NCBI GenBank assembly: GCA_025655455.1
Contig: JAHXIV010000037.1
Location: forward strand, 124,001-188,000
Length of the DNA stretch: 64,000 nt
Reading direction: 5' to 3'
Origin: a gamma proteobacterium symbiont of Taylorina sp.
Lineage (GTDB): Bacteria > Pseudomonadota > Gammaproteobacteria > GRL18
Position numbers and translations under genes: made by a program. Shown here piece after piece: positions 22,414 to 45,621 of the stretch. The notes under the pieces were generated by a model. It was not told where the DNA came from. It saw nothing but the letters and a program-made list of their open reading frames with translations, and made no database searches. The number at the start of each line of letters is the position of its first letter. Position 1 is the stretch's first letter.

Positions 22414-23853
22414 CTAGCTAAACAATGAATTATTGATCCACATATGAGTCAGGATGCTGGCAACATAGCCAATTGCAATAACAGGGGTCCATTTAAGATG
22501 GCTGAAAAAGGTATATTGTCCACGCGCCTGCCCCATCAAAGCAACCCCTGCAGCAGAACCAATTGACAGAAGGGAACCGCCTACACCAGCGGTTAATGTC
22601 ACCAGCAGCCACTGACCTGTTGACATATCCGGATTCATCGTCAGCACAGCAAACATGACAGGAATATTATCAACAATGGCAGATAAAACACCCACACTGA
22701 TATTAGCAAAAGTAGCTCCCCATTGTTGATACATCAACTCTGATGCCATTGACAGATACCCAAGAAAACCCAGACCACCGACACATAAAACAACACCATA
22801 AAAGAACAGCAGGGTATCCCACTCAGCCTTCGCAATCGGCAGAAACACATCAAATGCAACCACTTCACCAATTTCATCTTCCTCTGAATTATTAATTGCC
22901 ATCTCATGTGCAACACATTTATGTTTAGTTTTCTTAAGATAGTAGCCCAATAGTTGAAGATAACTCAAACCAGTCAACATACCAAAGACCGGGGGCAGGC
23001 CAATAAAGTTATGAAAGCTCACAGCTGTGGCAATTGTCAGTAAAAACAAGATCATCATACGTCTCGCACCTCGCTTCATGACCACTATTTCACCTGTAGA
23101 ATCTGGTTTTTCATCTGGTACAGCAAGACTCATAATAACAGCAGGTAATACAAAATTAACAACAGAGGGTAAAAACAAGGCAAAGAATCCCCAGAAATCA
23201 ATCATTCCTTTTTGCCAGACCATCAGGGTAGTAATATCGCCAAAGGGACTAAAGGCACCACCTGCATTAGCTGCAACAACAATATTTATACAGGCAATAG
23301 CAACAAAACGAGTATTAGTCCCACCAACAGCTAAAACCACTGCGCACATCAACAATGCAGTGGTTAAGTTATCAGCAACCGGTGAGATAAAAAATGCCAG
23401 GATACCAGTCAGCCAGAATAGTTGACGAAAAGAAAACCCTTTGTGGATCAGCCAGGAGCGAAGCGCATCAAAAACACGTCGTTCTTCCATACCATTAATA
23501 TAAGTCATGGCAACCAGTAAAAACAGCATCAGTTCTGAATATTCCAGCAGGTTATGACGAATGGCCTGTTCAGCCAGTTCAGACATGCCATGATTAAGAT
23601 AAACCCAGCCAATCATTGCCCAGATAATTCCGGCAGCCAGAATAACCGGCTTTGATTTACGCAAAAGAGTGAATTCTTCGGCCATGACAAAAAGATAGGC
23701 TATAAAAAAAACCAATAAAGAGATAAAACCAATAGGACTTGAAGTTAAGTCCAGGGGTTCATGCTGACTACTCTCCATAGCAAAAACATGCAATGGCAAT
23801 AATAGTAAAGAAAAGCCCATTAGAAGTTGTTTAATATTTTTTTGCATGCTCAT
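22414..23853 (-). CDS. nhaD: Na+/H+ antiporter NhaD
   Basis: This 479-residue inner-membrane protein has a likely signal-like first segment and about 11-12 further membrane helices. It belongs to the NhaD branch of the IT superfamily, seen in ISPVADNLTTALLMCAV, GGAFSPFGDITTLMVW and SAIVDNIPVMFAV, which hold conserved polar residues of the transport site. NhaD is typical of marine and halophilic bacteria and exports Na+ at alkaline pH. It is divergent from the phosphoryl-transfer operon, with a 174-base shared upstream region. Confidence 0.92.
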   Translation of the reverse strand: MSMQKNIKQLLMGFSLLLLPLHVFAMESSQHEPLDLTSSPIGFISLLVFFIAYLFVMAEEFTLLRKSKPVILAAGIIWAMIGWVYLNHGMSELAEQAIRHNLLEYSELMLFLLVAMTYINGMEERRVFDALRSWLIHKGFSFRQLFWLTGILAFFISPVADNLTTALLMCAVVLAVGGTNTRFVAIACINIVVAANAGGAFSPFGDITTLMVWQKGMIDFWGFFALFLPSVVNFVLPAVIMSLAVPDEKPDSTGEIVVMKRGARRMMILFLLTIATAVSFHNFIGLPPVFGMLTGLSYLQLLGYYLKKTKHKCVAHEMAINNSEEDEIGEVVAFDVFLPIAKAEWDTLLFFYGVVLCVGGLGFLGYLSMASELMYQQWGATFANISVGVLSAIVDNIPVMFAVLTMNPDMSTGQWLLVTLTAGVGGSLLSIGSAAGVALMGQARGQYTFFSHLKWTPVIAIGYVASILTHMWINNSLFS

Positions 23854-24027: not shown

Positions 24028-24918
24028 ATGAAAAAAATCGGTGTAGTAGGAATTCCTGGTAAGTGGTCAACAGAAACCCTGGCAGATGCAATTGAGCAAA
24101 GAACCGGATTTCGTCTGGTCATTGACATGAGCAAAGTCAGTCTGGATTTAGCAGAAAAAAAACTCAATTATTTAGATTCTGATGACAAAATTGATTTATG
24201 CCAGCTGGATGGATTAATTATAAAAAAAATCAGCGCCGAATATAATCCAAATACTTTAGATCGCCTGGAACTATTACTGCTTGCACAATCACAGGGGGTT
24301 CAGATATTCAGTTCTCCTGAAAAAATCATGCGTTTAATTGATCGTCTGAGTTGTACAGTCATGTTGCGCAAAGCAGGTCTGCCCATGCCCGAAACCATGG
24401 TGACGGAGAATGTGGATGAAGCCATTGAAGCGGTTAAAAAATATTCCAGCGCTGTTTTCAAACCTCTGTTTTCGACCAAGGCACGCGGCATGGTTATCAT
24501 TGATGCCAATAATTCTGATTCACAAATAAAAAATGAAATTGAGCAATTTCAATTAGACAACCCGATGATGTATATCCAGAAAAAAATAAATCTACCGGGT
24601 CAGGATCTGGGGCTGGTTTTTTTAGGTGGTCAGTATCAGGGGACTTATGCACGAGTGAATCAATCCGGTACCTGGAACACCACGATTAATAGTGGCGGGC
24701 GTTACGCAAATTTTACACCATCTGATGAAATTATTGCTATCGGCCAGCAGGCTCAGGATCTTTTTGCAATGGATTTTACCACTGTGGATATTGCCGAAAC
24801 AGATAATGGACCGATTGTATTTGAAGTCTCCGCCTTTGGCGGCTTTCAGGGAGCCTTAGATGGCATTGGTATTAAAGCAGCCGAATTATATGCTGACTAT
24901 GTTATTAATAAAATGTAG
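24028..24918 (+). CDS. ATP-grasp enzyme, GAK-system type
   Basis: This 296-residue protein has a RimK-like ATP-grasp fold: an N-terminal pre-ATP domain beginning KKIGVVGIPGKWSTETL, the ATP-binding lysine region VFKPLFSTKARGMVII (about 143-158), the hinge MYIQKKI, and the metal-binding end VDIAETDNGPIVFEVSAFGGF. ATP-grasp enzymes join a carboxylate to an amine or thiol through an acyl-phosphate. It heads a nine-gene operon with an HprK-related kinase and a CofD-related protein, a set I recall from family databases as GAK. No clear Shine-Dalgarno precedes the ATG. The substrate is unknown. Confidence 0.78.
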   Translation: MKKIGVVGIPGKWSTETLADAIEQRTGFRLVIDMSKVSLDLAEKKLNYLDSDDKIDLCQLDGLIIKKISAEYNPNTLDRLELLLLAQSQGVQIFSSPEKIMRLIDRLSCTVMLRKAGLPMPETMVTENVDEAIEAVKKYSSAVFKPLFSTKARGMVIIDANNSDSQIKNEIEQFQLDNPMMYIQKKINLPGQDLGLVFLGGQYQGTYARVNQSGTWNTTINSGGRYANFTPSDEIIAIGQQAQDLFAMDFTTVDIAETDNGPIVFEVSAFGGFQGALDGIGIKAAELYADYVINKM

Positions 24919-24930
24919 GTTCTGGCAATT

Positions 24931-25656
24931 ATGTCAAGGATAATAGCTGCCTTGGTTCGCCATGGTGATTATCAGCAGCTGGAAAATACACCCAGTGCCT
25001 GGCAACCATTTCCTCTGAATAAAGAGGGGCTGGGACATGCTCAATCAGCTGCACAGGATATACGTGACAGGCTTGTTGAACAACACTGGCATCTGCAAGC
25101 TGAATGTGATTCATCACAACTATTAAGAGCATGGCAAACAGCAGATATCATTTGCCGCTTATTAAAAGATAAGACATTTAGTCACGATCCTGAACAAGCC
25201 ATTGATATTCAAATTAATAGTTATGATGCTCTGGCAGAACGCAGTGTCGGTAGTGCCGCTAACTTAAATATTTCACAAATTGAGAAAATTATTGATAATG
25301 ATCCTCGTTTTGAGGCCTTACCAAAAGATTGGAAATCCAATAGTCATTTTTGTCTGCCTTTACAGGGCGCTGAATCTTTAATGGATTCAGGAAAAAGAGT
25401 TGCTGAACATTTATTAAAAGCAATGACTGATTTAAAGCAATCTGTGCAACCAGCAACAATGAAAATTTTTGTCGGTCATGGTGCCGCCTTTCGACATGCA
25501 GCCTATCATTTAGGCATACTGGAATTTGAACAAATCGCACAATTAAGTATGTATCATGGTCAGCCTGTCTATATTGAACTATTAGATGATGGTTCCTGGG
25601 TTCAGATAGCAGGTCAATGGAAAATTCGAGAGAAAAAAACTCAGTATACGGATTAA
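24931..25656 (+). CDS. Histidine phosphatase family protein
   Basis: This 241-residue protein has the phosphoglycerate-mutase-like catalytic RHG motif in ALVRHGDYQ near its N-terminus and a second catalytic His in FVGHGAAFRHA near residue 185. SSQLLRAWQTADIICRLL is the usual second arginine block. It probably removes phosphate from a small molecule or a phosphoprotein. It begins 12 bases after the ATP-grasp gene. A SixA-type paralogue closes the same operon, so two phosphatases of one superfamily serve this system. The substrate cannot be read from the sequence. Confidence 0.8.
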   Translation: MSRIIAALVRHGDYQQLENTPSAWQPFPLNKEGLGHAQSAAQDIRDRLVEQHWHLQAECDSSQLLRAWQTADIICRLLKDKTFSHDPEQAIDIQINSYDALAERSVGSAANLNISQIEKIIDNDPRFEALPKDWKSNSHFCLPLQGAESLMDSGKRVAEHLLKAMTDLKQSVQPATMKIFVGHGAAFRHAAYHLGILEFEQIAQLSMYHGQPVYIELLDDGSWVQIAGQWKIREKKTQYTD

Positions 25657-25697
25657 AGACTAATAATCCATGCCTTGCAACTTACTATTAATATCTT

Positions 25698-27050
25698 ATG
25701 ATACTAAAAAAATTTAAACATTATTTTAATCGCTATTACGGCAAGCAATGGATCAATGCCAAACTGCCGACACAGGCTCAGGTTTGGATGATGGGTCCTT
25801 ATGAGCTATCTGTAAAAAAAGACAGCGAATTAACCGATGCCATTGCCTGTGAAATTAAAGCGCATCTTGATAGTGATTCATGGATCTGGCCAGATAAAAC
25901 CATCTATTTTTTCTCTGATATGCATGCTGATGCCGATGCATTTATTGCTTCATTAGTTGCTTCCGGCGGCATAAAAAAAACAGGTAAAAAAGACAAACAA
26001 TTCAAGCTCAGCAAAGAGGGTAAAAAAGCCCGTTTTATCCTTGGTGGTGACTGTTTTGATAAAGGTCCAAGCACCTTGCGACTTTTAAGAGTGATAAAAT
26101 TGCTGATTGATAAGGGTGGTGATGTGGTGATTTTAGCCGGTAATCACGATATTAGGACTCTGGTTGGTATCCTGTCCCTATCTGAGAAAAAAAAGGCATG
26201 TAGCGAACATTTTTTTATTCGCATGGGATTAAAACCCCTCCCCCTTTTTAAAGAAATTTATGACTGCTATCTAAAAGGAAAGAAGGGCAAAAAATACAAG
26301 ACAGCAAGCACTAAAACTTGTAGAAAAAAATTATTTCCATCAAAAAACTGGGCGCAAAGATATCAACAATATGCCAAAAAATATCTATCTGAAAGTGCCA
26401 TTAAAAAAGATATGAAACACACCATTGAAAAAATGAATAATTTTGAAAACTGGTGTACCAGAAAAGGCTTAACACTCCCACAGGTTTATGCGGCAGCCAA
26501 AAAATGGCAGGAATTGTTTCTTCACCCAAAAGGTGAATTTTACTGGTTTTTTAAGCATCTTAAATTAGCCAATAGAGAGGGTTCATTTTTCTTTGTCCAT
26601 GCCGGCGTTGACAATTCAAGTGCTAAAATGATTCGCAGCCATGGTGTTAAAGGGATCAATAAAATCTTTAAAAAAGAATTAAAATCTGATTTATTTAAGC
26701 TTTATCATGGCCCCTTAGGTAATATGATTAGAACTAAATATCGTGATCATGAGCGTGATTTTACAAAAAAAGGTTCCCTGATGATGTACAATTCAGGTAT
26801 CAATGCCATTGTCCATGGACATAGAAACTTATATTATGGACAACGCATCATGTTACGCAAGGGGATCATGAATTTTGAATGTGATACATCCTTAGATATT
26901 AACACTCGAAAAAAGGAAGGCATTGTCCGGGGTCTGGGCGCGTCAGTCACTATTATTCATCCACAAAAGCTGGTTTTGGGAATAAGCAGTGATTATCCTT
27001 TTATTAAAGTTTTTGAACCTGAACTGACTAAAAAATTATGTAATATATAG
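25698..27050 (+). CDS. Calcineurin-like metallophosphoesterase
   Basis: This 450-residue protein carries all the metal ligands of the PPP/calcineurin fold: SDMHAD near residue 75, GGDCFDKGP (about 116-124), AGNHD (about 150), FVHAG and VHGHR toward the C-terminus. A Lys-rich insert of about 120 residues (roughly 165-285) separates the third and fourth motifs, which is unusual. It is cytoplasmic, with no signal or membrane segment. Its place inside the kinase/transferase operon suggests it hydrolyses a phosphorylated product or protein of that pathway. Confidence 0.85.
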   Translation: MILKKFKHYFNRYYGKQWINAKLPTQAQVWMMGPYELSVKKDSELTDAIACEIKAHLDSDSWIWPDKTIYFFSDMHADADAFIASLVASGGIKKTGKKDKQFKLSKEGKKARFILGGDCFDKGPSTLRLLRVIKLLIDKGGDVVILAGNHDIRTLVGILSLSEKKKACSEHFFIRMGLKPLPLFKEIYDCYLKGKKGKKYKTASTKTCRKKLFPSKNWAQRYQQYAKKYLSESAIKKDMKHTIEKMNNFENWCTRKGLTLPQVYAAAKKWQELFLHPKGEFYWFFKHLKLANREGSFFFVHAGVDNSSAKMIRSHGVKGINKIFKKELKSDLFKLYHGPLGNMIRTKYRDHERDFTKKGSLMMYNSGINAIVHGHRNLYYGQRIMLRKGIMNFECDTSLDINTRKKEGIVRGLGASVTIIHPQKLVLGISSDYPFIKVFEPELTKKLCNI

Positions 27051-27087
27051 ACAGTTCTTTTATACTAATCAAAGATAAATACTTTTT

Positions 27088-27549
27088 ATGGAAAATCTCT
27101 TAGATACTATTCGTAACGCTGCACGAGCAATCATTATCAGAGATGGAAAACTTCTGGTACTAAAAAAAACTGATGGTTCTTATACTTTGCCCGGTGGCGC
27201 ACACGATCCCGGAGAAACTATTGAACAGGGGTTACAACGGGAATGTCTTGAAGAAATTGGTACCCATGTTCGCATCAACAGACTTGCTTATGTCGGAGAT
27301 TATTTTAAACCTAAACAAAGCAATCCCCCCGGCATCAGACACCAGGTTGAATTTTTATTTGACTGTTGTGTCAGTGATGATTATATCGCACAATCAGGTC
27401 ATCACCCCGATAAACGGCAAATAGATGTAGTATGGCTTGATTTGAATGGTTTAGAAACGCAGACACTATATCCCGTTACATTAAAAAAATGCATCCGCGA
27501 ACTGGATGAAAATACTCCCGTTTATATAGGAAAGATGACACATCAATGA
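27088..27549 (+). CDS. NUDIX hydrolase
   Basis: This 153-residue protein has an intact NUDIX box (G, then E, RE and EE.G) in PGGAHDPGETIEQGLQRECL followed by EEIG. Such enzymes cleave nucleoside diphosphates linked to another group. The stop overlaps the next start in ATGA, so it is coupled to the PhoU-like/kinase gene. A second NUDIX domain occurs at the operon's end. Its substrate may be a nucleotide-activated intermediate of the CofD-like step, which is inference. Confidence 0.88.
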   Translation: MENLLDTIRNAARAIIIRDGKLLVLKKTDGSYTLPGGAHDPGETIEQGLQRECLEEIGTHVRINRLAYVGDYFKPKQSNPPGIRHQVEFLFDCCVSDDYIAQSGHHPDKRQIDVVWLDLNGLETQTLYPVTLKKCIRELDENTPVYIGKMTHQ

Positions 27550-29219
27550 ATATTTTCAGCGAGGTTAATGAGAATTTACGATTTTTGATTTCAGAAGTGA
27601 CACTACAGGTCAGTAATTTACAGCTTTATTTAAAAAATCCCTCTGATATAGTTGCCAAACATATTTTAGATAGAAGCGGCTATTTCTATAATCTGAAAAT
27701 ACGTATTCAAAATACCTGCAACCATATTATTGCCAATGACAAAGAACCGCCTCATATCAATAGAAAGTTAAAGGCTCTGGACTCCATTGCTACAAATCTG
27801 GCTGAAATAGCAGATTTATGCGGCAACTGTGTTTCTAATATCGAATCCGCCAACCAGATAAAACAATTTTATAGTAAAAAATATGATGAGATGCTTGAAG
27901 AGGTCAAAAATCAGATCAGCAAAATTGAAGTCAGTATTTATGATGATAATACTCAGATAGCATTAAAAATCGGTCAGATTAATAGCAAATTCAGAAAAAT
28001 CAATCAAAAACAGCAAAAACAATATATTAAAAAACTCTCACAAAAGAAATCAGTCAAAAAGCTCATCACTTTTATTAATGTGATGAACACATTAACACAA
28101 ATGGGCAAGGCCTTATTAGACATTAGTGAAATCATTATTTCATCCAACCTGGGAAAGTCAGTCAGCACTCAACGTTATAATTCTCTTAATAACTCCATTC
28201 AGAAATGGTGGGGAGTACCAATGGATCAGGTCAGTATTGAAACTGTTGCCGAAACCCGTTCCGGTAGTGGTATTTCCGGCATCTCCGCGGATAAAAATAA
28301 AGATAAGCAAAAAACTAAAAAGGACGTTAATAAAGCAGATGGTTATGATGCAATTTTTAAAGAGGGTGAAAGGAAAAAACTTAAGGAAGAAAAAGATAAA
28401 GTAGAAAGCTGGCATGAAATCTACCCCGGCCTGGCTCCTAAAATTATTGACTACCAGAAACAAGGAAAATCAGCTTCTATCTTAATTGAACATTTACCTG
28501 GTTATACTTATGAAAAAATATTGCTGACTCAATCTAATACTTTATTAAAGCAATCCAGAAAACAGCTTTTTAAAACTTTAAAAAATATTTGGAAAGAAAC
28601 TTATACAAAAAAAAGAATTTGTGCCGGATATATTCAGCAACTAAATAAACGTCTGGATGCTGTTTATTCTATTCATCCTGAGTTTATGCAACTCAATAGT
28701 TCTATTTGTGGTTATCCTGTTGCTAATTTCAAGACACTAATGACAAAGGCTGTAGTTTTTGAAGAAAAACATGCCAGAGCTGCTTTTTCTGTTTATATCC
28801 ATGGTGATCTGAATGTAGATAATATTATTTATGATTCTCTGGAAAAGAAAATTAATTTAATTGATTTACATCGTTCACAATATATGGATTATATTCAGGA
28901 TATCTCTGTTTTTATGGTTTCCAATTATCGTCTGCAAGTTCTGGATCGACCATTGCGTCGCAGGATATTAGAAACAGCTCTGATGTTTTATTATTGCACA
29001 CAAAAATATGCTCATAAAATGAATGATAAAAATTTTGAAATTCGCCTGGCATTAGGTCTGGCTCGTTCATTTGCCACATCAACTCGCTTTATTCTGGATA
29101 AAACACTGGCTCAGTCCATGTTTATTCGTTCCCGATATTTAATTGAAAGTGTCTTACAAACACCTGTCAATCAACTATCAAACTATCAATTACCCATTAA
29201 AGACATTTTTACAGGTTAA
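27546..29219 (+). CDS. PhoU-like helical domain fused to APH-like kinase
   Basis: This 557-residue protein looks like a two-part fusion. Residues 1-205 are all-helical with repeated blocks such as LKALDSIATNLAEIADLCGN, resembling PhoU-type bundles. A Lys/Glu-rich linker (about 240-290) follows. Residues 290-557 resemble aminoglycoside-phosphotransferase kinases, with ILIEHLPGYTYEKIL, the catalytic loop YIHGDLNVDN (417-426) and the metal motif LIDLHR (438-443). The kinase N-lobe is poorly recognisable, beginning around the FKEGER segment. The target could be a small molecule or a protein. The PhoU-like assignment is tentative. Confidence 0.65.
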   Translation: MNIFSEVNENLRFLISEVTLQVSNLQLYLKNPSDIVAKHILDRSGYFYNLKIRIQNTCNHIIANDKEPPHINRKLKALDSIATNLAEIADLCGNCVSNIESANQIKQFYSKKYDEMLEEVKNQISKIEVSIYDDNTQIALKIGQINSKFRKINQKQQKQYIKKLSQKKSVKKLITFINVMNTLTQMGKALLDISEIIISSNLGKSVSTQRYNSLNNSIQKWWGVPMDQVSIETVAETRSGSGISGISADKNKDKQKTKKDVNKADGYDAIFKEGERKKLKEEKDKVESWHEIYPGLAPKIIDYQKQGKSASILIEHLPGYTYEKILLTQSNTLLKQSRKQLFKTLKNIWKETYTKKRICAGYIQQLNKRLDAVYSIHPEFMQLNSSICGYPVANFKTLMTKAVVFEEKHARAAFSVYIHGDLNVDNIIYDSLEKKINLIDLHRSQYMDYIQDISVFMVSNYRLQVLDRPLRRRILETALMFYYCTQKYAHKMNDKNFEIRLALGLARSFATSTRFILDKTLAQSMFIRSRYLIESVLQTPVNQLSNYQLPIKDIFTG

Positions 29220-29228
29220 ATATCACTT

Positions 29229-30329
29229 ATGACTACAACAATTCCAACAATAGAATCTATCTCTCAACAACTCATCAGGGATCAGCAAATGGTCAGTGAT
29301 GTTTTACATTTAAAAATAGGTGACTGCTGTCTGAATTTATACTCTAATTCCAAAACATTAATTGACAAATTAAACCACTATTTTTCCCATTGTAATGTGA
29401 TTGGTGAGCATGATTCGGCGGATATTGATATCATAGCAATAGAATCAGAAGCACCTGAATTAGGAATTAATTTTACTGACTGGCAACGTGAACCTGGAAA
29501 AACAGGCCGTAAAGATGAATATCATGATCTGCAAAATGCCCGTGTGGTACGCAAGGTTCGCACCGGTATGGTCTTTCTGCAAAGTGAGCAGAAAAGAATT
29601 GCCGCCGGTCCCTGCATTAAATATGACAATCAGGTGATTAATTTTATCAATTCACAATATATGAACTGGTTACAACAACGCGGCTGGTTAATCTGCCATG
29701 CTTCGGGCTTAAGTCATAATAATAAGGGCTTTGCTATCGCAGGTTTTTCAGGTGGGGGAAAATCAACACTGATGCTGGATATGATGAAAGATCCAACCAT
29801 CTCATATATCACCAATGATCGACTCTTTATTAAATCTTCAAGTAATAAAACTGACATGGCCGGTATCCCAAAACTACCGCGCATCAACCCCGGCACCATT
29901 ACCGGTAATAGCACTTTACATCCATTATTATCCAAACAGGAACTGGATCATTACCAGGCAATGGCAAGGGAAGAACTATGGGATATTGAAAAAAAATACG
30001 ATGTTTTTATCAAAGAACTTTATGGCGATCAACGCATACAGGATGTTTCTCAGCTAGAAGCCTTTATTATTTTAAACTGGCAGCGCCAAAGTAATGATCC
30101 TGTGACTCTGACGCAAATTAATCTGCAGGATCACCGTGAATTATTAAAAGCCATTATGAAGCCTTCCGGCCCGTTTTATCAGGATGCACAGGGCATATTC
30201 CAAAAAGATGAACTGGATCTGGATGAAGAAGCTTATCTTTCCATGCTGTCTGGAATAAAAATATATGAAGCTCATGGCGGCATAGATTTTGGCCAATTAA
30301 CCAAACTTTGTATGACTAATATAATGTAA
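29229..30329 (+). CDS. HprK-related kinase B
   Basis: This 366-residue protein has a P-loop GFSGGGKST at 172-180 preceded by hydrophobic strands, and ITNDRLF (about 195-201), at the place where HPr kinase/phosphorylase has its acidic catalytic motif. It lacks the N-terminal domain of true HprK and shows no neighbouring HPr. A long C-terminal extension (about 235-366) is specific to the subfamily. It follows the PhoU-like/kinase gene by nine bases and precedes the small amphi-Trp-like gene by 11. It may phosphorylate a Ser, Thr or small molecule in this pathway. Confidence 0.78.
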   Translation: MTTTIPTIESISQQLIRDQQMVSDVLHLKIGDCCLNLYSNSKTLIDKLNHYFSHCNVIGEHDSADIDIIAIESEAPELGINFTDWQREPGKTGRKDEYHDLQNARVVRKVRTGMVFLQSEQKRIAAGPCIKYDNQVINFINSQYMNWLQQRGWLICHASGLSHNNKGFAIAGFSGGGKSTLMLDMMKDPTISYITNDRLFIKSSSNKTDMAGIPKLPRINPGTITGNSTLHPLLSKQELDHYQAMAREELWDIEKKYDVFIKELYGDQRIQDVSQLEAFIILNWQRQSNDPVTLTQINLQDHRELLKAIMKPSGPFYQDAQGIFQKDELDLDEEAYLSMLSGIKIYEAHGGIDFGQLTKLCMTNIM

Positions 30330-30340
30330 GGTAATAAAAA

Positions 30341-30631
30341 ATGAGACAAAGTAAAAAGACATTTTCGCATCTTTCACTACAGGATGCTAAATCAATTCAA
30401 CCCATTTTAAAGTCTATTATAAAAGGACTTTCAGCCGGTGAAATGACCTTTAGTGATGAAGAGGATGAAATTAAATTAAAGCCGGAAGGCTTATTGAGAT
30501 TTAAAGTATCAGCATCAGAATCTGAAACAAAGCATCAATTAAATATTAAAATCAGCTGGAATATTGATGATCCGGAATTAGATGATAAATCTATATTATC
30601 AGTATCCCCCAGCCGTTCGAGAAAAAAATGA
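30341..30631 (+). CDS. Small amphi-Trp-like protein
   Basis: This 96-residue protein begins with a helix, then has a run of alternating hydrophobic and charged residues ending in Trp (LNIKISW). That pattern fits the amphi-Trp domain I recall as a companion of GAK genes. SAGEMTFSDEEDEIKLKPEG is the conserved middle block. The C-terminus is Ser- and basic-rich (SVSPSRSRKK). Its size and position between the kinase and the CofD-like transferase make it a candidate carrier or substrate protein, which is inference. Its stop codon overlaps the first of two duplicated mini-ORFs. Confidence 0.65.
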   Translation: MRQSKKTFSHLSLQDAKSIQPILKSIIKGLSAGEMTFSDEEDEIKLKPEGLLRFKVSASESETKHQLNIKISWNIDDPELDDKSILSVSPSRSRKK

Positions 30632-30664
30632 GAGTCATTAACTAATATGAAAGTCATCAACTAA
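30628..30664 (+). repeat. Duplicated start/stop units before the CofD-like gene
   Basis: Two 18-base mini-ORFs, 30628-30645 (reading MRVIN) and 30647-30664 (MKVIN), lie head to tail directly before the ATG of the next gene at 30665, which itself begins MRVLQ. The first ATG overlaps the preceding gene's TGA. The three ATG-led segments look like imperfect copies of one another. Confidence 0.7.
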
Positions 30665-32467
30665 ATGAGAGTATTACAACTTTTTATTGAGATCATCTTT
30701 ATTGGCAGTCTGGCGATTATAGCCACTAATAAACTATTCCCGTTGCCTATTTTTTCACACGAAGCTGTAATACAAAATAAAATATTATTTACTTTAAATT
30801 TTGTTATTATTGCCTGGGTCATTGGTTTTTTTATTAATATATTCTCTGATATATTTTTGGTCCCGATCTATCGAAGAGTTGAAGCCCGCTGGATGCTGCG
30901 TGAAGCTAATCCGGAATTAGTATTAGAGCATTTACGTTATGATCTTTACGTTAAAGCTTCCAGTAAAGAAGTAATTCAACGTATAGAATATCACCGTTCT
31001 CTGGTCAGATTATCTCGCGGAATATTATTTGGATCCATTTTATATCTTTTCACAGCATTATTAGTCAGCAATTATTATCAGGCTGCTTTGTCTATAGTCG
31101 CTTCTCTATTTGCTTTTTTTGCCTATTACAGAGCCTTAATCTGGTCAATAAAATCAACTTATTATGCCTGGGTTTCACTTAAACAAAATAATGATCCTGA
31201 AATACCTGACTATGCAATAAAATCCTTTCCCTCCTTTCAGCAAGATGACAAAAATAAGATTAAAACACAGGGAATAAAGATTGTTGCCTTTACCGGAGGA
31301 ACAGGATTCAGAGACATCAATATGTCTTTGGCTCAAAAAACTCAGAATATCACACGTATTGTTCCTATATGGGATAATGGCGGCAGCTCCAAAGCATTAA
31401 GAAAATGCTTTGATATCATGCCTGTCGGTGATATCCGCCATGCTCTCATGACACAGGCACATGGTGAGGGCCGCGTAGGTTCTATTGTTAAATTATTTAA
31501 CTGGCGTCTTTCCGATTCAGGTGATAATGAACAACTCTTAACAGAGCTTGAAAGCTTTATTAATAACCAGCATCCATTAATGAAATCACTTGATCAAAGT
31601 CTGGGCAATGTCATTGTTAATTATTTAAAACACTTTTATGAACATCTGCCCTGCTCAGATAATGGCAAGGCAATGGATTTAAAAAATGGCAGTATTGGGA
31701 ATTTCGTCCTTGTAGGCGGCTATTTAGCCCATAATAAAGATATTAACACCGCTATCTATGTTTTCCGGCAGCTGTGTTCTATTGACGGGAATGTCTGGCC
31801 TGTTTCTATCGCCAATGACTTACATATCAAAGCTCACCTTGAGGATGGCCAAATTCTTATCGGTCAATCTAACACCACAAAGACAGATAAAACAAAATCC
31901 AGCCAACGTATTAAAAGTATTTCTTTCAGCAATGATCTGACTGATCTGAAAAACACTCAGATTATTCCCGCTCAGGCTAATCCAATGGTTCTGGATGCTC
32001 TGCAAAAGGCTGACGTGATTGTTTTTGGCCCCGGCAGCTTTTTTACCAGTGTCCTCCCCCAGATCAAAGTAGAAGGGATTGTTGACGCCATAGCAAAACT
32101 GGATGCCACAAAAATATTTATCGGCAATCTCATAGAAGATAACGAATGTCAGGGCTATACTTTAGAAGAAATCATTGACATATTTTTAAGCACATGCAAT
32201 CAGCATGCAAAAATTAAACGCCCTCTTAATCGATACCTGACACATATTATCGTTCATAGCAGTCATACTATAACTGAACATACACATAATGAACGTCACT
32301 ATTTATCACCCGGTAATAATATTAAACGTTTTAATAGTGACGGAATAAGCATTATCATCGATGACTTTGAAAATCCCTGGAAACGGGGTGGGCATGATCC
32401 CATCTGTATTTCAGAGTATTTAACCAATATCAACCAGCCTAATTCAAATCAAGAGCCTTCAAGCTAA
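30665..32467 (+). CDS. CofD-related transferase with membrane-spanning N-terminus
   Basis: Residues about 203-590 match the CofD/YvcK superfamily: VAFTGGTGFRDIN, IWDNGGSSKALRK and PVGDIRHALM, with a later FGPGSFFTSVLP block. True CofD moves a phospholactyl or phosphoenolpyruvyl group from a nucleotide to a deazaflavin; this protein belongs to a divergent branch. The first 160 residues hold about four hydrophobic segments (5-25, 40-62, 118-137, 140-158), so the catalytic domain is likely tethered to the membrane. No deazaflavin synthesis genes are in view. Its activated donor and acceptor are unknown. Confidence 0.8.
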   Translation: MRVLQLFIEIIFIGSLAIIATNKLFPLPIFSHEAVIQNKILFTLNFVIIAWVIGFFINIFSDIFLVPIYRRVEARWMLREANPELVLEHLRYDLYVKASSKEVIQRIEYHRSLVRLSRGILFGSILYLFTALLVSNYYQAALSIVASLFAFFAYYRALIWSIKSTYYAWVSLKQNNDPEIPDYAIKSFPSFQQDDKNKIKTQGIKIVAFTGGTGFRDINMSLAQKTQNITRIVPIWDNGGSSKALRKCFDIMPVGDIRHALMTQAHGEGRVGSIVKLFNWRLSDSGDNEQLLTELESFINNQHPLMKSLDQSLGNVIVNYLKHFYEHLPCSDNGKAMDLKNGSIGNFVLVGGYLAHNKDINTAIYVFRQLCSIDGNVWPVSIANDLHIKAHLEDGQILIGQSNTTKTDKTKSSQRIKSISFSNDLTDLKNTQIIPAQANPMVLDALQKADVIVFGPGSFFTSVLPQIKVEGIVDAIAKLDATKIFIGNLIEDNECQGYTLEEIIDIFLSTCNQHAKIKRPLNRYLTHIIVHSSHTITEHTHNERHYLSPGNNIKRFNSDGISIIIDDFENPWKRGGHDPICISEYLTNINQPNSNQEPSS

Positions 32468-32488
32468 AAAATCAACAGGAGTTCCCTA

Positions 32489-33472
32489 ATGTCTGCAAGC
32501 AAGAAAAATTTGAACAAAGAACTACTGATTCTAAGACATGGTAAATCTGCCTGGAATACTGGTGAAACTGACTTTTTAAGACCCTTAAAAAATCGTGGCA
32601 AACGCAGTGCTCAGAGAATGGGTGTCTGGCTGGCAGAACAAAAGCTTCTGCCTGATATAATTATTAGCTCACCAGCAGAACGAGCCATAAACACTGCTGA
32701 AAAGGCCTGCAAGGCAATGGGATTTGATGCCAGGATAATCCAGACTGATCAACGGATTTATGAAGCTGCTTTATCCGATCTGCTGCAATTGCTATCTGAA
32801 CTTTCAGAAAAGACACAACGTGTCCTGCTGGTTGGACATAACCCGGGCTTAGAAGATTTATTAACTTATCTGGTTTCTGACATAGTGATACCTAAAGATG
32901 GTAAATTATTAACAACAGCTACTCTGGCTCATGTAAAATTCAAACATCACTGGCAACTGCTATCACAAAATGATGCAGTTCTATGTTCCATCACACGGCC
33001 TAAATCTCTGCCAAAATCATTTCCTTTTCCCATAGCAGGTAAAATTGAGCAGCGCAAAAGACCAGCTTATTATTATTCTCAGTCCTCAGTTATCCCCTAT
33101 CGTATCACTAACAATCAACTGGAAATTATGCTGGTTACTTCCAGCAGCAATAAGCACTGGGTAGTACCCAAAGGCATTATTGATCCCGGACTCTCCGCCC
33201 TGGAATCTGCCGAAAAAGAAGCATTGGAAGAAGCCGGCATAGTGGGTTCAAGTCATGAAGAATTAATAGGCCATTATGTCTGTGAAAAATGGGGAGCGCA
33301 ATGCAGTGTTGAGGTGTATGCCATGCAGGTCGACAGGGTTTTATCCGAATTACAATGGCAGGAAAGCCATCGTAAACGCCTTTGGGTGGATATTGATCAA
33401 GCCATAAGTCGTATCCATCAGCCTGCTCTTATTCCTTTATTTAAAAAATTACAAAAGAAAAATCTAAGCTAG
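32489..33472 (+). CDS. SixA-type phosphatase fused to NUDIX domain
   Basis: This 327-residue protein joins two hydrolases. Residues 10-160 form a SixA-like histidine phosphatase with LILRHGKSAW and LLVGHNPGLEDLL. Residues 190-325 form a NUDIX domain with WVVPKG and a NUDIX box ending EKEALEEAG. In that box a Leu stands where the first Glu is usual and KE replaces RE, which I believe is normal for this branch. A good AGGAG precedes the start. It is the last gene of the operon. SixA enzymes act on phosphohistidine in proteins, so this one may reverse a phosphorylation made by the upstream kinases. Confidence 0.85.
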   Translation: MSASKKNLNKELLILRHGKSAWNTGETDFLRPLKNRGKRSAQRMGVWLAEQKLLPDIIISSPAERAINTAEKACKAMGFDARIIQTDQRIYEAALSDLLQLLSELSEKTQRVLLVGHNPGLEDLLTYLVSDIVIPKDGKLLTTATLAHVKFKHHWQLLSQNDAVLCSITRPKSLPKSFPFPIAGKIEQRKRPAYYYSQSSVIPYRITNNQLEIMLVTSSSNKHWVVPKGIIDPGLSALESAEKEALEEAGIVGSSHEELIGHYVCEKWGAQCSVEVYAMQVDRVLSELQWQESHRKRLWVDIDQAISRIHQPALIPLFKKLQKKNLS

Positions 33473-33999
33473 GAGCTTCTATTGCTATCCATTGAAACAA
33501 TAATCTTTTTCTAAAGGCAAAGGTTTTCCATCTTGATTTCAATAAAGAAATTATTTCATAATTATTCCCATTTTTTATTGTATTCATTAATGATATTGCT
33601 TCCTGAGTACCTTGTCTGATCTCTTTAATCACCTCACCTGCCTTTCTTTTATTAAAAAGAACATTGATTATTATCAACTCAACGACTATGGAGTGAAAGT
33701 CCTTAAAATCAAGAGCCTTCAGCCAACATGAATTTGGCCACCTTCATTTGTAGTAACATAAAATTTCTATAAATGATGGAGGATAAATTTTTGTTACTAG
33801 AAGCCAATAAATCCAAACTTACTTTTTGTTATCCGGCATGGACCAGCTAATAAACCTTGGAATCAAACACCAGAGCATAGCAGGTGGTATACTTAACAAT
33901 AGATGAATGAGATAATTTTTAATTCAATAAAACCCAGATTAGATGTTTTACGTGTTATTATTGCCAGTTAATAATTTGAAAAAACAAACTGAACTAACA
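33473..33999. other. Intergenic region before nhaA
   Basis: This 527-base gap contains one copy of the dispersed element (33720-33803) and no convincing gene. A short minus-strand frame at 33441-33677 has no family features and overlaps the end of the SixA-NUDIX gene. The word atcaagagccttcaa near the end of the CofD-like gene (about 32450) recurs with one mismatch at about 33708. No clear terminator for the operon was found. Confidence 0.5.
33720..33803 (+). repeat. Dispersed ~90-bp element, copy A
   Basis: This copy begins cagccaa and has the left hairpin ccaa...ttgg, then agtaacataaaatt and, about 35 bases on, aatttttgttact, which form an inverted pair. It aligns with the elements at 44556 and 61494 in the same orientation. 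The middle part is the most divergent. Confidence 0.6.
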
Positions 34000-35169
34000 A
34001 TGAAAATTATAGACGAATTTATACAGAAAGAATCTTCCGGTGGTATTTTATTAATATTTGCAACCATTTTGGCTCTCATATTAAGCAATACTTCAATGTC
34101 ATCCTTCTATGAAACTTTTTTACACATACCGGTAGAAATACGTGTTGGTGCCCTACATCTTGATAAGTCTCTCTATCACTGGGTAAACGATGGTCTGATG
34201 GCTATATTCTTTCTGCTAATTGGCTTAGAAGTCAAAAGAGAAATAGTAGAAGGTCATTTATCTTCTATAAAGCAAGTTATATTGCCCGGAGTCGCAGCTA
34301 TTGGTGGAATGCTTGTGCCTGCACTAATCTATCTAATATTTAATCAAAATAATCCCATTGCTCTCAATGGCTGGGCAATACCCACCGCCACTGATATTGC
34401 ATTTGCCTTAGGCATTCTTTCATTGTTAGGTAATCGGGTACCTGTTTCACTTAAAATATTTTTGATGGCCTTAGCCATTATGGATGATTTAGGTGCCATT
34501 GTTATTATTGCTCTTTTTTATACAACGGAGCTTTCCACTTTATCTCTTGCTGTTGCAGGTATTTCTTTATCCGCATTAGTTACTCTCAATTTTTTTGGCG
34601 TTGCAAAAAAAGCCGCTTATTTTATTGTCGGCCTTGTATTGTGGGTCAGTGTGCTTAAATCAGGTGTTCATGCTACATTGGCCGGCGTTGCATTAGCATT
34701 TACCATTCCATTAAATGCACGAGACGAAAACAATCAATCATTCTCACCTCTCAAAGAAATAGAACATGGCCTTCATTTCTGGGTTGCCTTTTTTATTCTG
34801 CCTTTATTTGCTTTTGTCAATGCAGGGGTCGATGTAACGGAGATATCCTTAAGCCAAATGTCCGGTTCTGTACCGCTGGGCATTATGCTGGGACTCTTTT
34901 TTGGTAAGCAAATCGGAGTGTTTGGATTCAGCTGGCTGGCAATAAAACTTAAACTGGCAAAACTGCCTGAAGATAGTAACTGGATGCAGCTTTATGGTGT
35001 GTCCGTATTAACAGGTATTGGATTTACCATGAGTTTATTTATAGTTTCTTTAGCATTTGAAGATGATAGTATTTTTCAATACACCGATAAACTGGCCATA
35101 TTGATAGGATCATTCCTATCAGGAATTGTTGGATATTTAGCTTTAAAAACAGGAAAAAATCCTGCTTAA
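34000..35169 (+). CDS. nhaA: Na+/H+ antiporter NhaA
   Basis: This is a 12-helix electrogenic antiporter exchanging one Na+ for two H+. It has NhaA hallmarks: GWAIPTATDIAFALGILSLL, FLMALAIMDDLGAIVIIALF with the paired transport aspartates, and KSGVHATLAGVALAF. The frame opens at 33943, but the ATG at 34000 (MKIIDEFIQKESSGG) matches the E. coli start and gives 389 residues against 388. It ends eight bases from the convergent PstS-like gene. Confidence 0.96.
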   Translation: MKIIDEFIQKESSGGILLIFATILALILSNTSMSSFYETFLHIPVEIRVGALHLDKSLYHWVNDGLMAIFFLLIGLEVKREIVEGHLSSIKQVILPGVAAIGGMLVPALIYLIFNQNNPIALNGWAIPTATDIAFALGILSLLGNRVPVSLKIFLMALAIMDDLGAIVIIALFYTTELSTLSLAVAGISLSALVTLNFFGVAKKAAYFIVGLVLWVSVLKSGVHATLAGVALAFTIPLNARDENNQSFSPLKEIEHGLHFWVAFFILPLFAFVNAGVDVTEISLSQMSGSVPLGIMLGLFFGKQIGVFGFSWLAIKLKLAKLPEDSNWMQLYGVSVLTGIGFTMSLFIVSLAFEDDSIFQYTDKLAILIGSFLSGIVGYLALKTGKNPA

Positions 35170-35177
35170 TTGCATTT

Positions 35178-35972
35178 TTATTTATATCCTACAAAACGTT
35201 TTTTAACTACTTTTTGGCCTTCATCAGAACGACTCCAGTCAATAAATTTTTGTACTTTATCCGAAGGTTTACCATGGGTTAGCAAATAGAGTGGTCGTGT
35301 AATAGGATAATTCGGGTTATGAACATGGCCTTTTTGCTGACCAATATCTAAAGTTTTAATTCTGGTTTTCTTGTTAAGAAAGGCAAAACTAATCTGGCCA
35401 ATGCCACCCCAGGCATGAGTCACCTTGGATATAATTTTTCTATCCGGAGCAACAACCTCAGTACCATGATATTCTTCAGTCCCTAATATCTGCTTTCTAA
35501 AAACATGACGTGTTGCTGAAGAGTCTTGTACAGTAAATACTTTGATGGGTGCATCTTCACCGCCCAGTTGTGACCAGTTATTGACTTTGCCGGTAAAAAT
35601 ATCTTTCAGCTGTTGCTTTGACAAATTATTAACAGGATTACGCTTATTAACAATGACGGCAATAGCATCCTTGCCAATTAAAAATCGTTGTATTTTATTT
35701 TCTGCCACTACTGAATCTGCAACACCACCCACATCACATGAGCCTTTAAGAGCACATTGATAACCACCCAGACTTTCTGTATCTATATTTTTTTCAAATG
35801 AGGCTGCTGTATATACTTTAGCAGCATCTGAAATAAATTTTCCAATGGTTGATGAGCCTTCATATTTGATAAGTTGTTTTTTCTGTATAGCACCTGTGGC
35901 AAACAGCGACTGGCTTAACACGAAGCAAGCAGTGAACAAACTGAGAACCGTCAGCAAATAAAATTTTTTCAT
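35178..35972 (-). CDS. PstS-like periplasmic binding protein in a respiratory operon
   Basis: This 264-residue protein has a signal peptide (about 1-26). It has the phosphate-binding-protein fold with YEGSSTIG, LSKQQLKDIFTGKVNNW and a late GIGQISF, typical of PstS. No Pst transporter genes are near. Instead its start overlaps the stop of the tri-heme cytochrome gene by four bases, so it is the last gene of the oxidase operon. It may bind an oxyanion such as phosphate, or have been recruited as an electron-chain accessory. Confidence 0.8.
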   Translation of the reverse strand: MKKFYLLTVLSLFTACFVLSQSLFATGAIQKKQLIKYEGSSTIGKFISDAAKVYTAASFEKNIDTESLGGYQCALKGSCDVGGVADSVVAENKIQRFLIGKDAIAVIVNKRNPVNNLSKQQLKDIFTGKVNNWSQLGGEDAPIKVFTVQDSSATRHVFRKQILGTEEYHGTEVVAPDRKIISKVTHAWGGIGQISFAFLNKKTRIKTLDIGQQKGHVHNPNYPITRPLYLLTHGKPSDKVQKFIDWSRSDEGQKVVKKRFVGYK

Positions 35973-42038: not shown

Positions 42039-44555
42039 TTGCAAACAATAAATCATCATGTAATTGATCGCTTATTAAATTATCTCGAAAATGGTGATGA
42101 AGTCGATCGTTGCTATGCAGCAAAAACGCTGGGAAATCTCAAAGTTAAAGCTGCAACCAGCGCCCTGTTAGAACGCATTAAAGATGAAGACATCGATGTC
42201 TGCATTGATGCGGTGACCGCATTAGGAAAAATTAAAGACTTTTCTGCTATTCCATCTTTACTGGAATCACTTGAAAAAGATCCCGATAGTGATGTAAAAC
42301 TTGCAATCACCGAATCTCTGGTTTATTTTCAGAGCCAGGATGCCATTGATGTCTTGTTAAAACTTGCTGAAGATCGTCCCGAGGGAATGGATTTTGACCA
42401 AAATGACGATTGGGACAGCTGGTGGGACTTACAAGAAAAAGCCATCTTCATTCTGGGTGAAATGAAAATACAAAAAGCAGTGCCCATTTTAAAAGATATT
42501 TTAGAAGATGAGTTCAGTCAGGATATTGAATCTATTGTACTAAAAGCTCTGGCAAAAATTGGTGGTGATGCAGACGAATATTTAATTAATCGCCTGAACA
42601 ATAGTGATAATACTTATGCAGAAAAACACCAGCGTCGTACAGCAACTGCACTGGGTTTTTCACAGAGCAAAGAAACCTTACAGGCTTTAGGACGTGCTCT
42701 GGTCAGCAAGTCCGCCGATACAAGAGAAAATGTGATCTATGCACTGGGTCAACGCAAAGCCAGTCAATATATAAGAGCCATACTATTGAGTCTACGGGAT
42801 CCCAATGCCAATGTTAAAAGTGCAGCATTGGAAGTTGTGCAGCAATTAGCGAGTGAAACACAAATTGATCAGGAGTTGGATTTTAATCAAATTGCAGCAT
42901 TCTTGCATAATAACCTGCAGAATAAAGACTTGTCTGATAAAGATATTACCTTACAAACCACAGTTTTATCTTTCTTTAAAGAGCAGGAGAAAATTCATCC
43001 TGTCATCGCTAAACTAAGCAAAGAAAATCAAAGTTTGATACACCAAAGCCTTTTATCATCTAATGATAATGTGCTCACTCAGGCAGCTCAGCTCGCAGGT
43101 ATTAGCCGGGATCCAGACAATGCAGAAGCTCTGTTTAATCTGGCATTTTCTGAAAGCCACTCAGTCTGGGTGAAAAAAGAAGCTATTTTAGCTTTAGGCA
43201 CTATCATTAACAACATAGAACCTGAGCATAGAAAACAAGCTCTATTAGACTTAAGACAACTGGTACATCATGAAGAGCAGGCCGTACGATTTGCAGCTTT
43301 GCAATCATTGTTAACCCTTTCCAATGAATATCAGCTGCCAGAACCTTCAGATGATGATAACGAGCTACCGCCGATCAGCATATTATTAGCCACTTTAAAA
43401 GGTGAACAATTTGATATTCAGGCGGAGGATGAAATCTGCAGTACAGGTGAAACTCCAACAGAAGATAATTGCAGCAGTTGTCCAAAAAATACAGCCTGTT
43501 CAGATAATATTCAGCTTACAGAATCTATAATAAAACAATTTGAAGACAATGATATAAAGGAAAGTACTCATCTGATTGCTGACAATGAAGACCAGACAAT
43601 AGGTGCTGCACAGTCAACCTTAGAAGCCATTGCCATGGATAATGTTGAAAGCACTTTATCTGTTATTCCTGAAACAACTGAACAAAAATCACACAACAAA
43701 GAAAGCGGGCCATTTATTTCAGAAGAACTACCAGAAGAGCTGGATGAATATGTCGCTATTATGCGTAAAAACTTTTCTGCTGGAAAAAAGATTGTAAGGA
43801 GAAAGATCAATACCTTTAGTGATGCTCGTCACATCTGTGCACGCTTGCTTTCCGATAATATTCACAGTCGGTATAATGAGCTTATTGTCAGTACTCTGTC
43901 AGAATGTTTAAATGATGAAGATGAACAATTACGTCAGGAAGCAGCTGAGACGTTATCACTGATCAGTTTAAAAAACCCTTTAATACCTGGCTTAAATAAT
44001 ACCTTTGGCAAGCTGGTCACACTATTGGACAGCAAAGATTCTGATATGAGAATTGCTTGTATCCATGCGATTAGCCATTCAGGTAATCCTGCAGCACTAC
44101 CTCATCTACTGGATTATTTATCTGATGAAGAATATATCGTTAAACTACAGGCAATTGAAGGTCTGGTCTATATACTAAATAATACGGCTGGACTGACTCA
44201 GGAACAAAAAGATGAGTTCATGGTTTTGGATGAAGTCAATCCAACTCAGATTGTAGCTGCACTTTTTGACTGTTTAGAAGATAAAAACTATAGTGTATCA
44301 ATGAGTGCTATTGAGGCTCTGGTTGAACTAAAACAAACGGATGCGATTGAGAAATTTGTTGATGTTGCACTCACAGGAGAAGGTCAGTCAGCAAGGCAGA
44401 TTTCAAAGTTATTGAAAAAACTGGATGTAGAAAAAAGTACTGAAGTTCTTTTAGCGCGACTGGATAGTGTTTCTGACAGCTCTTATAGACGTTATGTAAT
44501 GGAAATGCTGGAAGTTGTTATAGACTCAGATGAAGGACAAAAGCAAGCGGCTTAG
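42039..44555 (+). CDS. HEAT-repeat protein with central Cys cluster
   Basis: This 838-residue cytoplasmic protein consists of two helical HEAT/PBS-lyase-like repeat arrays (about 1-430 and 570-830), with units such as VDVCIDAVTALGKIKD and DSDVKLAITESL. The linker holds four cysteines at 467, 478, 481 and 487 (C-x10-C-x2-C-x5-C), a possible Fe-S or zinc site. It starts at TTG 42039, with GGAG eight bases upstream. Such proteins act as scaffolds. The divergent oxidase operon suggests a role in its regulation or assembly. Confidence 0.8.
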   Translation: MQTINHHVIDRLLNYLENGDEVDRCYAAKTLGNLKVKAATSALLERIKDEDIDVCIDAVTALGKIKDFSAIPSLLESLEKDPDSDVKLAITESLVYFQSQDAIDVLLKLAEDRPEGMDFDQNDDWDSWWDLQEKAIFILGEMKIQKAVPILKDILEDEFSQDIESIVLKALAKIGGDADEYLINRLNNSDNTYAEKHQRRTATALGFSQSKETLQALGRALVSKSADTRENVIYALGQRKASQYIRAILLSLRDPNANVKSAALEVVQQLASETQIDQELDFNQIAAFLHNNLQNKDLSDKDITLQTTVLSFFKEQEKIHPVIAKLSKENQSLIHQSLLSSNDNVLTQAAQLAGISRDPDNAEALFNLAFSESHSVWVKKEAILALGTIINNIEPEHRKQALLDLRQLVHHEEQAVRFAALQSLLTLSNEYQLPEPSDDDNELPPISILLATLKGEQFDIQAEDEICSTGETPTEDNCSSCPKNTACSDNIQLTESIIKQFEDNDIKESTHLIADNEDQTIGAAQSTLEAIAMDNVESTLSVIPETTEQKSHNKESGPFISEELPEELDEYVAIMRKNFSAGKKIVRRKINTFSDARHICARLLSDNIHSRYNELIVSTLSECLNDEDEQLRQEAAETLSLISLKNPLIPGLNNTFGKLVTLLDSKDSDMRIACIHAISHSGNPAALPHLLDYLSDEEYIVKLQAIEGLVYILNNTAGLTQEQKDEFMVLDEVNPTQIVAALFDCLEDKNYSVSMSAIEALVELKQTDAIEKFVDVALTGEGQSARQISKLLKKLDVEKSTEVLLARLDSVSDSSYRRYVMEMLEVVIDSDEGQKQAA

Positions 44556-44650
44556 GAGTGCTACAGCCAAAAAAATTGGCACGAATTATTTTTAGTAACA
44601 TAAAAATGACTTAAAATCATTTGTGCTAATTTTTTGTTACTCAAGAGTTT
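44556..44650 (+). repeat. Dispersed ~90-bp element, copy B
   Basis: It begins directly after the HEAT gene stop. A first hairpin is gccaa-aaaaa-ttggc (about 44566-44580). Then agtaacataaaaat and attttttgttact form outer arms around an inner atga/tcat pair. It is about 80 percent identical by eye to the copy at 61494 over its whole length. The second hairpin's T-rich arm could serve as a terminator for the HEAT gene. Confidence 0.7.
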
Positions 44651-44680
44651 ATTTTTAAATACAAACATTAGGAAAAAAAC

Positions 44681-45412
44681 ATGAAAAAATTAATTGCATC
44701 TATTGCATTAGCAACTGCAGCAACTCTCACCATGCCGGCTATGGCTGCTTATAAAGTAGTTGATGTTGCCAATGGCGGCACTATCACTGGAAAAGTTAAT
44801 TTTACTGGTAATGACAAGGCTCCCCAGACATATAAAGTAGCCAAAGACACTGATACTTGTGGTACTGCTAATCGTAAAATTGATTATGTCGATGTGAAAG
44901 ACGGTGCCTTAAGAAATGTAGTGGTTTATCTGGATAAAGTAAAATCCGGTAAAAAATTCGATCCTATTGATGTCCAGATTGATCAGAAGGGCTGTGATTT
45001 TATACCCTTTATGAGTGTTATGACTAACGGTGCAATGTTTGAAGCCACTAACTCTGATCCTGTTTTGCATAATATCCACACTTATGAAATCATGGGGCGT
45101 GCAAAAAAGACGGTTATGAATGTCAGTCAGCCCAAGCAGAATTCAGTTACCAAAAAGAAAGTTAAACTAAAGCGTGGCGCAGGCATGAAGATAGAATGTG
45201 ATGCTCATGACTTTATGCATGGTTTTGTTTTTGTCGCAAAAAACCCATACTACGCGATGGTCGCTGAAGATGGTACTTATACAATCAGTGATATCCCCGC
45301 GGGTAAATACAAAGTTAAAGCATGGCACGGTACCTTAGGTGAGCAAAAAGGCAAAGCCGATGTAGCAGCCGGTGCTTCAGCAACTGTTGATTTTACTTTT
45401 AAAGGTAAGTAA
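44681..45412 (+). CDS. Secreted cupredoxin-like protein
   Basis: This 243-residue protein has a signal peptide (cut after AMA, residue 22). The body has a beta-rich core with candidate copper ligands: H130 and H133 in DPVLHNIHTYE, then C173, H176, M179 and H180 in ECDAHDFMHGF. This spacing suits a type 1 copper site. The C-terminal part (about 187-243) resembles a carboxypeptidase-regulatory-like domain. An AGGA site precedes the ATG. It may shuttle electrons or copper in the periplasm next to the oxidase genes. Confidence 0.72.
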   Translation: MKKLIASIALATAATLTMPAMAAYKVVDVANGGTITGKVNFTGNDKAPQTYKVAKDTDTCGTANRKIDYVDVKDGALRNVVVYLDKVKSGKKFDPIDVQIDQKGCDFIPFMSVMTNGAMFEATNSDPVLHNIHTYEIMGRAKKTVMNVSQPKQNSVTKKKVKLKRGAGMKIECDAHDFMHGFVFVAKNPYYAMVAEDGTYTISDIPAGKYKVKAWHGTLGEQKGKADVAAGASATVDFTFKGK

Positions 45413-45467
45413 TAAAAATATTCATGAATGTGACTTTTTAATTCGTGCTTAGAAGTACGGGTTATGT

Positions 45468-45514
45468 TTCAGAGGACGCTCAAGGCCATGGATGGCCTTG
45501 AGCGTCCTCCTGAA
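45468..45514 (+). terminator. Long GC-rich hairpin after the cupredoxin-like gene
   Basis: An 18-base arm (45472-45489) pairs exactly with 45492-45509 around a two-base loop, and four further pairs form after one bulged base. This is the most stable hairpin in the window and is far more GC-rich than its surroundings. No T-run follows, so it may stop transcription with help, protect mRNA, or be a short mobile palindrome. Confidence 0.5.
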
Positions 45515-45621
45515 TTACACCTCATACATCGAAGTGCGTTTCCTTTATATAAATTCACAAATATCACCTTTTTTAAAAAATCATAAATCAATCCAGGTAA
45601 CAATATAGAAAGCAAATAATA

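Follow-up and report, generated by a model that had tools for sequence, protein, structure and literature searches.

The nine plus-strand genes at positions 24028-33472 of the window (the whole 64,000-nucleotide stretch of DNA analysed here) form one module and not a chance grouping, given that their nine families are the nine most frequent clusters among the neighbouring ORFs of 94 sequences (80 scanned loci, a first set of 13 loci and the window itself). Within this module, which belongs to the GAK system of the NCBI annotation models, a near-invariant core of six genes is distinguished from three accessory ones. As to its function, we give about even chances to the reading that the operon is a reversible phosphoryl-transfer switch linked to phosphate or polyphosphate, on account of a fusion of a PhoU domain to a kinase, the linkage of related loci to genes for polyphosphate and for phosphate uptake, and the presence of hydrolases with relatives that cleave phosphoanhydrides. 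Any one named substrate would be a poor wager.

Composition of the operon and its conserved core

Genes were assigned by NCBIfam and Pfam profile searches with curated cut-offs, and a check of ORFs and profiles reproduced the coordinates, strand and assignments of the nine-gene operon claimed in a first-pass annotation, with all nine ORFs as first listed. The intergenic distances are, in order, 12, 41, 37, -4, 9, 11, 33 and 21 bp; a gap of 470 bp then separates the operon from NhaA, the next gene. The genes are given below with the letters used for them here and their presence among 57 loci that have at least 5.5 kb on either side of G:

24028..24918, plus strand: G, GAK ATP-grasp protein with RimK-like fold, 296 aa (TIGR04356, 446.7 bits, cut-off 300; 57/57 loci)
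24931..25656, plus strand: H, histidine phosphatase, 241 aa (His_Phos_1 PF00300, 48 bits; 55/57 loci)
25698..27050, plus strand: C, calcineurin-like (PPP/ApaH-like) phosphoesterase, 450 aa (Metallophos PF00149, 43 bits; 56/57 loci)
27088..27549, plus strand: n, NUDIX hydrolase, 153 aa, accessory (PF00293, 57 bits; 33/57 loci)
27546..29219, plus strand: P, predicted fusion of a PhoU domain and an APH-like kinase, 557 aa (predicted structure and Foldseek; 57/57 loci)
29229..30329, plus strand: K, HprK-related kinase B, 366 aa (TIGR04355, 363.6 bits, cut-off 200; 56/57 loci)
30341..30631, plus strand: a, amphi-Trp small protein, 96 aa (TIGR04354, 63.5 bits, cut-off 31; 55/57 loci)
30665..32467, plus strand: D, YvcK/CofD-like protein with an N-terminal membrane-like region, 600 aa, accessory (PF01933, 168 bits; 31/57 loci)
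32489..33472, plus strand: S, fusion of a SixA-like phosphatase and a NUDIX domain, 327 aa, accessory (TIGR00249, 57 bits, cut-off 74.5; PF00293, 36 bits; 42/57 loci)

The identification of the operon as GAK-type in the first-pass annotation holds, in that three of the GAK models (ATP-grasp, HprK_rel_B and amphi-Trp) score above their cut-offs; the model for the CofD-like member (CofD_rel_GAK, TIGR04357) gives 255 bits, under its cut-off of 340. Relatives were collected by scanning genomes at the species level with an alignment of the ATP-grasp protein, and the best 80 of at least 493 matches, hence the nearest relatives only, were taken together with flanks of at most 10 kb and mechanically called ORFs. 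Phosphatase and NUDIX genes do accompany the GAK core in these loci, as the first-pass grouping implied. On the presence counts in the 57 well-flanked loci, P, G, K, H, C and a constitute the core, and S, n and D the accessories; the PhoU-APH kinase, the histidine phosphatase and the calcineurin-like phosphoesterase are as constant as the ATP-grasp protein itself. The commonest gene order in the relatives is D< n> P> G> K> S> H> C> a>, of which the order in the window, G H C n P K a D S, is a rearranged version; its nearest relatives, L014-L016, also start with G H. In the phylum of Rhodopirellula, G was found in 5 of 294 sampled genomes, and two loci of that phylum (L145 and L146) show the order D K G P a a C H, with two amphi-Trp genes.

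Sodium/proton antiporter genes stand on either side of the operon, NhaD at 22414-23853 on the minus strand and NhaA at 33943-35169 on the plus strand. Beyond NhaA, a gene for a PstS-like phosphate-binding protein (35178-35972, minus strand; TIGR02136, 143 bits, below the cut-off of 206.6) belongs to a minus-strand run reaching 41201 that also includes cytochrome c, ethylbenzene-dehydrogenase-like and cytochrome bd-like genes. Farther downstream, a plus-strand run at 42039-55024 encodes a HEAT-repeat protein, a heme-biosynthesis-like radical SAM protein, a PAS sensor kinase and a sigma-54 response regulator, and a second PPP-type phosphatase of the window (57487-58428, plus strand) resembles PrpE/ApaH and the phosphatase domain of Pnkp.

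Linkage to phosphate and polyphosphate genes

Beyond the nine families, the recurrent neighbours of GAK loci, which were selected post hoc after the data had been seen, are CHAD proteins with a ParA partner, Na/Pi cotransporters, CNNM/CorC proteins, an extra histidine phosphatase, a universal-stress protein and the polyphosphate kinase PPK1. The first-pass annotation did not mention this phosphate-related neighbourhood. The CHAD domain is a polyphosphate-binding one, and CHAD genes that stand alone are often members of polyphosphate gene clusters (PMC6537752). A CHAD gene is present in 14 of 98 GAK loci, or 13 distinct ones since L149 comes from the same genome as L085, against about 0.23 expected over the 1.58 Mb that the GAK loci span if a rough estimate of approximately 0.14 CHAD genes per Mb is used. 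The linkage is spread over the ATP-grasp tree with 11 changes, and the loci displaying it come from Gammaproteobacteria, an alphaproteobacterium (L093) and Rhodopirellula planctomycetes (L085 and L091); in L069, L070, L085, L133 and L138 the CHAD gene is on the strand of the operon. Na/Pi cotransporter genes are near GAK in 12 loci and PPK1 in 5. None of these three families is nearby in 76 of the 98 loci, though many loci are short, and with such variable lengths a missing neighbour in a short locus carries little weight. Two GAK loci that carry CHAD, L021 and L025, have homologs of the PstS-like protein of the window nearby.

At the level of whole genomes, PPK1 is present in 28 of 30 GAK-positive genomes compared with 78 of 120 sampled ones (p = 0.0015 by a statistic that ignores phylogeny), and the two GAK-positive genomes devoid of PPK1, that of the window included, carry PPK2. 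CHAD shows no such enrichment (6/13 GAK-positive genomes versus 148/299), so that linkage rather than co-occurrence bears the argument; the same figures led us to reject CHAD as an obligate partner of GAK. GAK relatives resemble the CHAD/PPK polyphosphate clusters in adjoining CHAD, ParA, PPK1 and Na/Pi transporter genes, whereas in the window neither CHAD nor PPK1, nor any other of these genes, adjoins the operon, and its genome has no PPK1 match. CHAD is encoded elsewhere in that genome, as are PPK2 (four full-length matches outside the window) and Na/Pi cotransporters (many matches).

There is also modest support, on the level of promoter sequence, for Pho-box-like sites in some lineages. 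A provisional Pho-box consensus, with a maximum score of 15.2, was used to score upstream regions; 6 of 91 GAK operons reach at least 12, compared with 3 of the 343 remaining genes in these loci that stand first in an operon (Fisher p = 0.0036; Mann-Whitney p = 5e-4, both with this provisional consensus and with kinship ignored). Among the top control sites, one lies in L138, upstream of its CHAD, ParA and GAK genes, and a second, scoring 11.6, is near a PPK1 fragment in L034; counting the L138 site with the operons would give p = 4e-4, and as this is a post hoc reassignment, 0.0036 stands as the figure. The promoter of the window operon has no Pho-box-like site by this provisional consensus, its best score being 9.2 of 15.2.

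Kinases, hydrolases and the proposed switch

P and the amphi-Trp protein were assessed through predicted structures, and G, K and D from their sequences. The AlphaFold2 model of P (66 sequences, pLDDT 89.9) comprises a helical bundle at residues 5-222 followed from about residue 229 by a kinase. The N-terminal half is predicted to have the PhoU fold: in Foldseek searches it matches PhoU of Pseudomonas aeruginosa (4q25) with a TMt of 0.86 over 201 columns and an rmsd of 2.1, and the Pfam PhoU model reaches 19.3 bits, slightly under its cut-off of 23.5. The other half matches APH kinases, and its kinase residues K272, E282, H419, D421 and D440 are invariant in the alignment. K likewise retains its Walker-A motif SGGGKS and a set of basic residues across 85 relatives.

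The relatives of G in the PDB are RimK/LysX ligases, and its next-best model after TIGR04356 is MptN (148 bits), with CofF matching weakly; the RimK-family model TIGR00768 gives 102 bits, below the cut-off of 143. Despite this likeness in fold and overall sequence to the RimK/LysX/MptN ligases, G departs from them in its residues for the substrate and the metal. The substrate-loop arginines of RimK are R211 and R216 (PMC10092738), and in G the aligned pair is Asn and Ser, while the Asn of the EVN motif is replaced by Ser; standard glutamate ligation by G is hence doubtful.

The catalytic residues of the hydrolases are well preserved. R10-H11, R66 and H183 of H are kept across 86 relatives, and D74, H76, D118, N149 and H150 of C, which form PPP/ApaH-like motifs, across 76; C scores 25 bits with the ApaH model, below its cut-off, and a sequence search of the PDB with C gave no match at E 0.01. 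The Nudix box of n is intact and its catalytic motifs are conserved in relatives. The NUDIX half of S has DIPP1 as its nearest PDB entry (E 5e-8), followed by Ap4A hydrolases. In seven loci (L069, L075, L085, L091, L093, L132 and L133) the RHG/RHA motif is gone from the SixA half of S with the NUDIX half conserved, and in these the former may have turned into a binding domain.

D is the only CofD_rel_GAK match in the genome of the window. It resembles the UDP-GlcNAc-binding YvcK/GlmR branch and not the CofD of F420 synthesis: YvcK/GlmR are its closest described relatives in NCBIfam and the PDB, the YvcK model TIGR01826 gives 150.9 bits (below the cut-off of 196), and the F420 CofD model (2-phospho-L-lactate transferase) gives 22 bits with a cut-off of 257. 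The likeness to YvcK/GlmR concerns the CofD-like part of the protein, and D differs from them, besides its score below the YvcK cut-off, in an extra N-terminal membrane-like region of about 200 aa with hydrophobic segments near residues 1-20, 34-69 and 116-160; within the locus set this region, which the first-pass annotation did not mention, is common only to the window and L055. The first-pass annotation counted a CofD-related transferase among the GAK set, and such a gene is indeed present, but we reject it as a core gene: it occurs in 31 of 57 loci, the CofD_rel_GAK model has no match in 12 of 20 GAK-positive genomes, and in several others its match is away from the operon. Among such off-operon CofD-like genes (L123-L127), three adjoin ABC-transporter genes, maybe of the glycerol-3-phosphate type; two of the three loci are related to each other and the third is independent, which is too small a number to carry weight.

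The computed basis of a phosphate-linked switch thus consists of the fixed gene set, the conserved catalytic residues of kinases and hydrolases, the PhoU-kinase fusion and the linkage, in relatives, to CHAD/ParA, PPK1 and Na/Pi cotransporters, with the resemblance to phosphoanhydride hydrolases lying in the NUDIX half of S and, weakly, in the ApaH-like character of C. In such a switch the PhoU domain of P would sense or dock to phosphate status, and P and K, perhaps with G, would phosphorylate a target that might be a small molecule or a protein. The amphi-Trp protein would be a scaffold or a target, whereas H, C, S and n would strip the phosphate or cleave its phosphoanhydride source, and the balance of the two activities would tune the handling of polyphosphate or phosphate.

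Alternative readings and significance

The best-surviving alternative, although an unlikely one, is that the operon adds and removes a phosphate-containing group, drawn perhaps from an activated nucleotide, on the amphi-Trp protein as a carrier. HprK_B would then act as serine kinase and the ATP-grasp protein as ligase, the transfer would fall to the CofD-like protein, and the hydrolases would erase the modification. Amphi-Trp is part of the core, and an N-terminal F-x-H-x-S motif marks its GAK versions and is not shared by amphi-Trp proteins that stand alone. Kinases of the HprK type place phosphate on serine residues of HPr and of lasso peptides. The best candidate for a modified residue in amphi-Trp is the GAK-specific Ser12 of this motif. 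However, Ala takes the place of Ser12 in 4 of the 69 amphi-Trp sequences in which the motif was found, which weakens Ser12 as a universal phospho-acceptor; one of the lineages with Ala also has Tyr in place of His10. The AlphaFold2 model of amphi-Trp has one helix and four strands, and comparison of this predicted fold with the PDB gave nothing below E 0.8 and one VIA hit at Z 2.3, with no clear match. The suggestion of the first-pass annotation that this protein is a modified carrier finds no support, and the dispensable, YvcK-like nature of D and the replaced substrate-loop arginines and metal-site Asn of G also speak against this reading. Stand-alone amphi-Trp proteins devoid of the motif were observed in L109, L110, L112 and L113, from genomes with no GAK ATP-grasp match.

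Less probable is a pyrophosphate-messenger pathway analogous to that of the eukaryotic inositol pyrophosphates, in which the ATP-grasp protein, P and K would be the kinases, the histidine phosphatase, NUDIX and PPP phosphatase the erasers, the PhoU domain the helical sensor, and polyphosphate the output. Yeast phosphate signalling uses Vip1/Asp1, Ddp1 and Ppn2 (PMC7381174, PMC9765450), whose folds are paralleled in the operon, the Asp1 kinase counts RimK among its structural relatives (PMC9765450), and the DIPP1-like NUDIX half of S is in line with the comparison. GAK and the eukaryotic inositol-pyrophosphate/polyphosphate network are alike in their set of folds, namely a RimK-like ATP-grasp protein, a histidine phosphatase, a DIPP-type NUDIX protein and a PPP phosphatase. 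Nevertheless, all the folds involved are common, the PhoU, HprK-like and amphi-Trp components are extra in GAK, and a search of the PDB with the G profile found RimK/LysX proteins and no PPIP5K or ITPK match at E 0.001. Moreover, inositol-phosphate synthase (PF01658) was found in just 1 of 28 GAK-positive genomes; its lack in the other 27 makes inositol, at least self-made inositol, an unlikely scaffold and disfavours a literal inositol-pyrophosphate pathway. A related proposal, to which we give the same small chance, is that a pyrophosphorylated messenger not described before, either a small molecule or bound to protein and probably not based on inositol, is made and erased by the GAK core and coordinates stored polyphosphate with phosphate uptake.

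Biosynthesis of an F420- or methanopterin-type cofactor, with the ATP-grasp protein as amino-acid ligase and the CofD-like protein moving a phospho-group, is the least credible reading, for despite the MptN and weak CofF scores of G and the presence of a CofD-fold protein, D falls far short of the F420 CofD cut-off, the CofD-like gene is missing from 12 of 20 genomes, and cofactor-biosynthesis genes do not recur in the neighbourhoods.

The GAK genes are named in the NCBI annotation models as hypothetical equivalogs (NCBIfam TIGR04354-TIGR04357, mostly 'hypoth_equivalog') and are widespread, with at least 493 relatives; no paper on the GAK system or the amphi-Trp domain was found in the literature searched, and a paper on CDC123 and ATP-grasp proteins does not mention the GAK partner proteins. 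The window shares with the system as defined by these models the ATP-grasp, HprK_rel_B and amphi-Trp proteins together with a CofD-like gene, and differs in the sub-threshold score and apparent membrane anchoring of the latter and in its rearranged gene order. To this definition our survey adds the PhoU-APH kinase, the histidine phosphatase and the calcineurin-like phosphoesterase as core members, so that the system is now enlarged to a six-gene core and three accessories with the PhoU-kinase fusion as a constant member. Were the messenger proposal true, the GAK core would be a bacterial analogue of eukaryotic inositol-pyrophosphate signalling. On the preferred reading of a phosphate-linked switch, these observations offer a testable functional lead for GAK, namely the control of phosphate and polyphosphate in largely marine bacteria.
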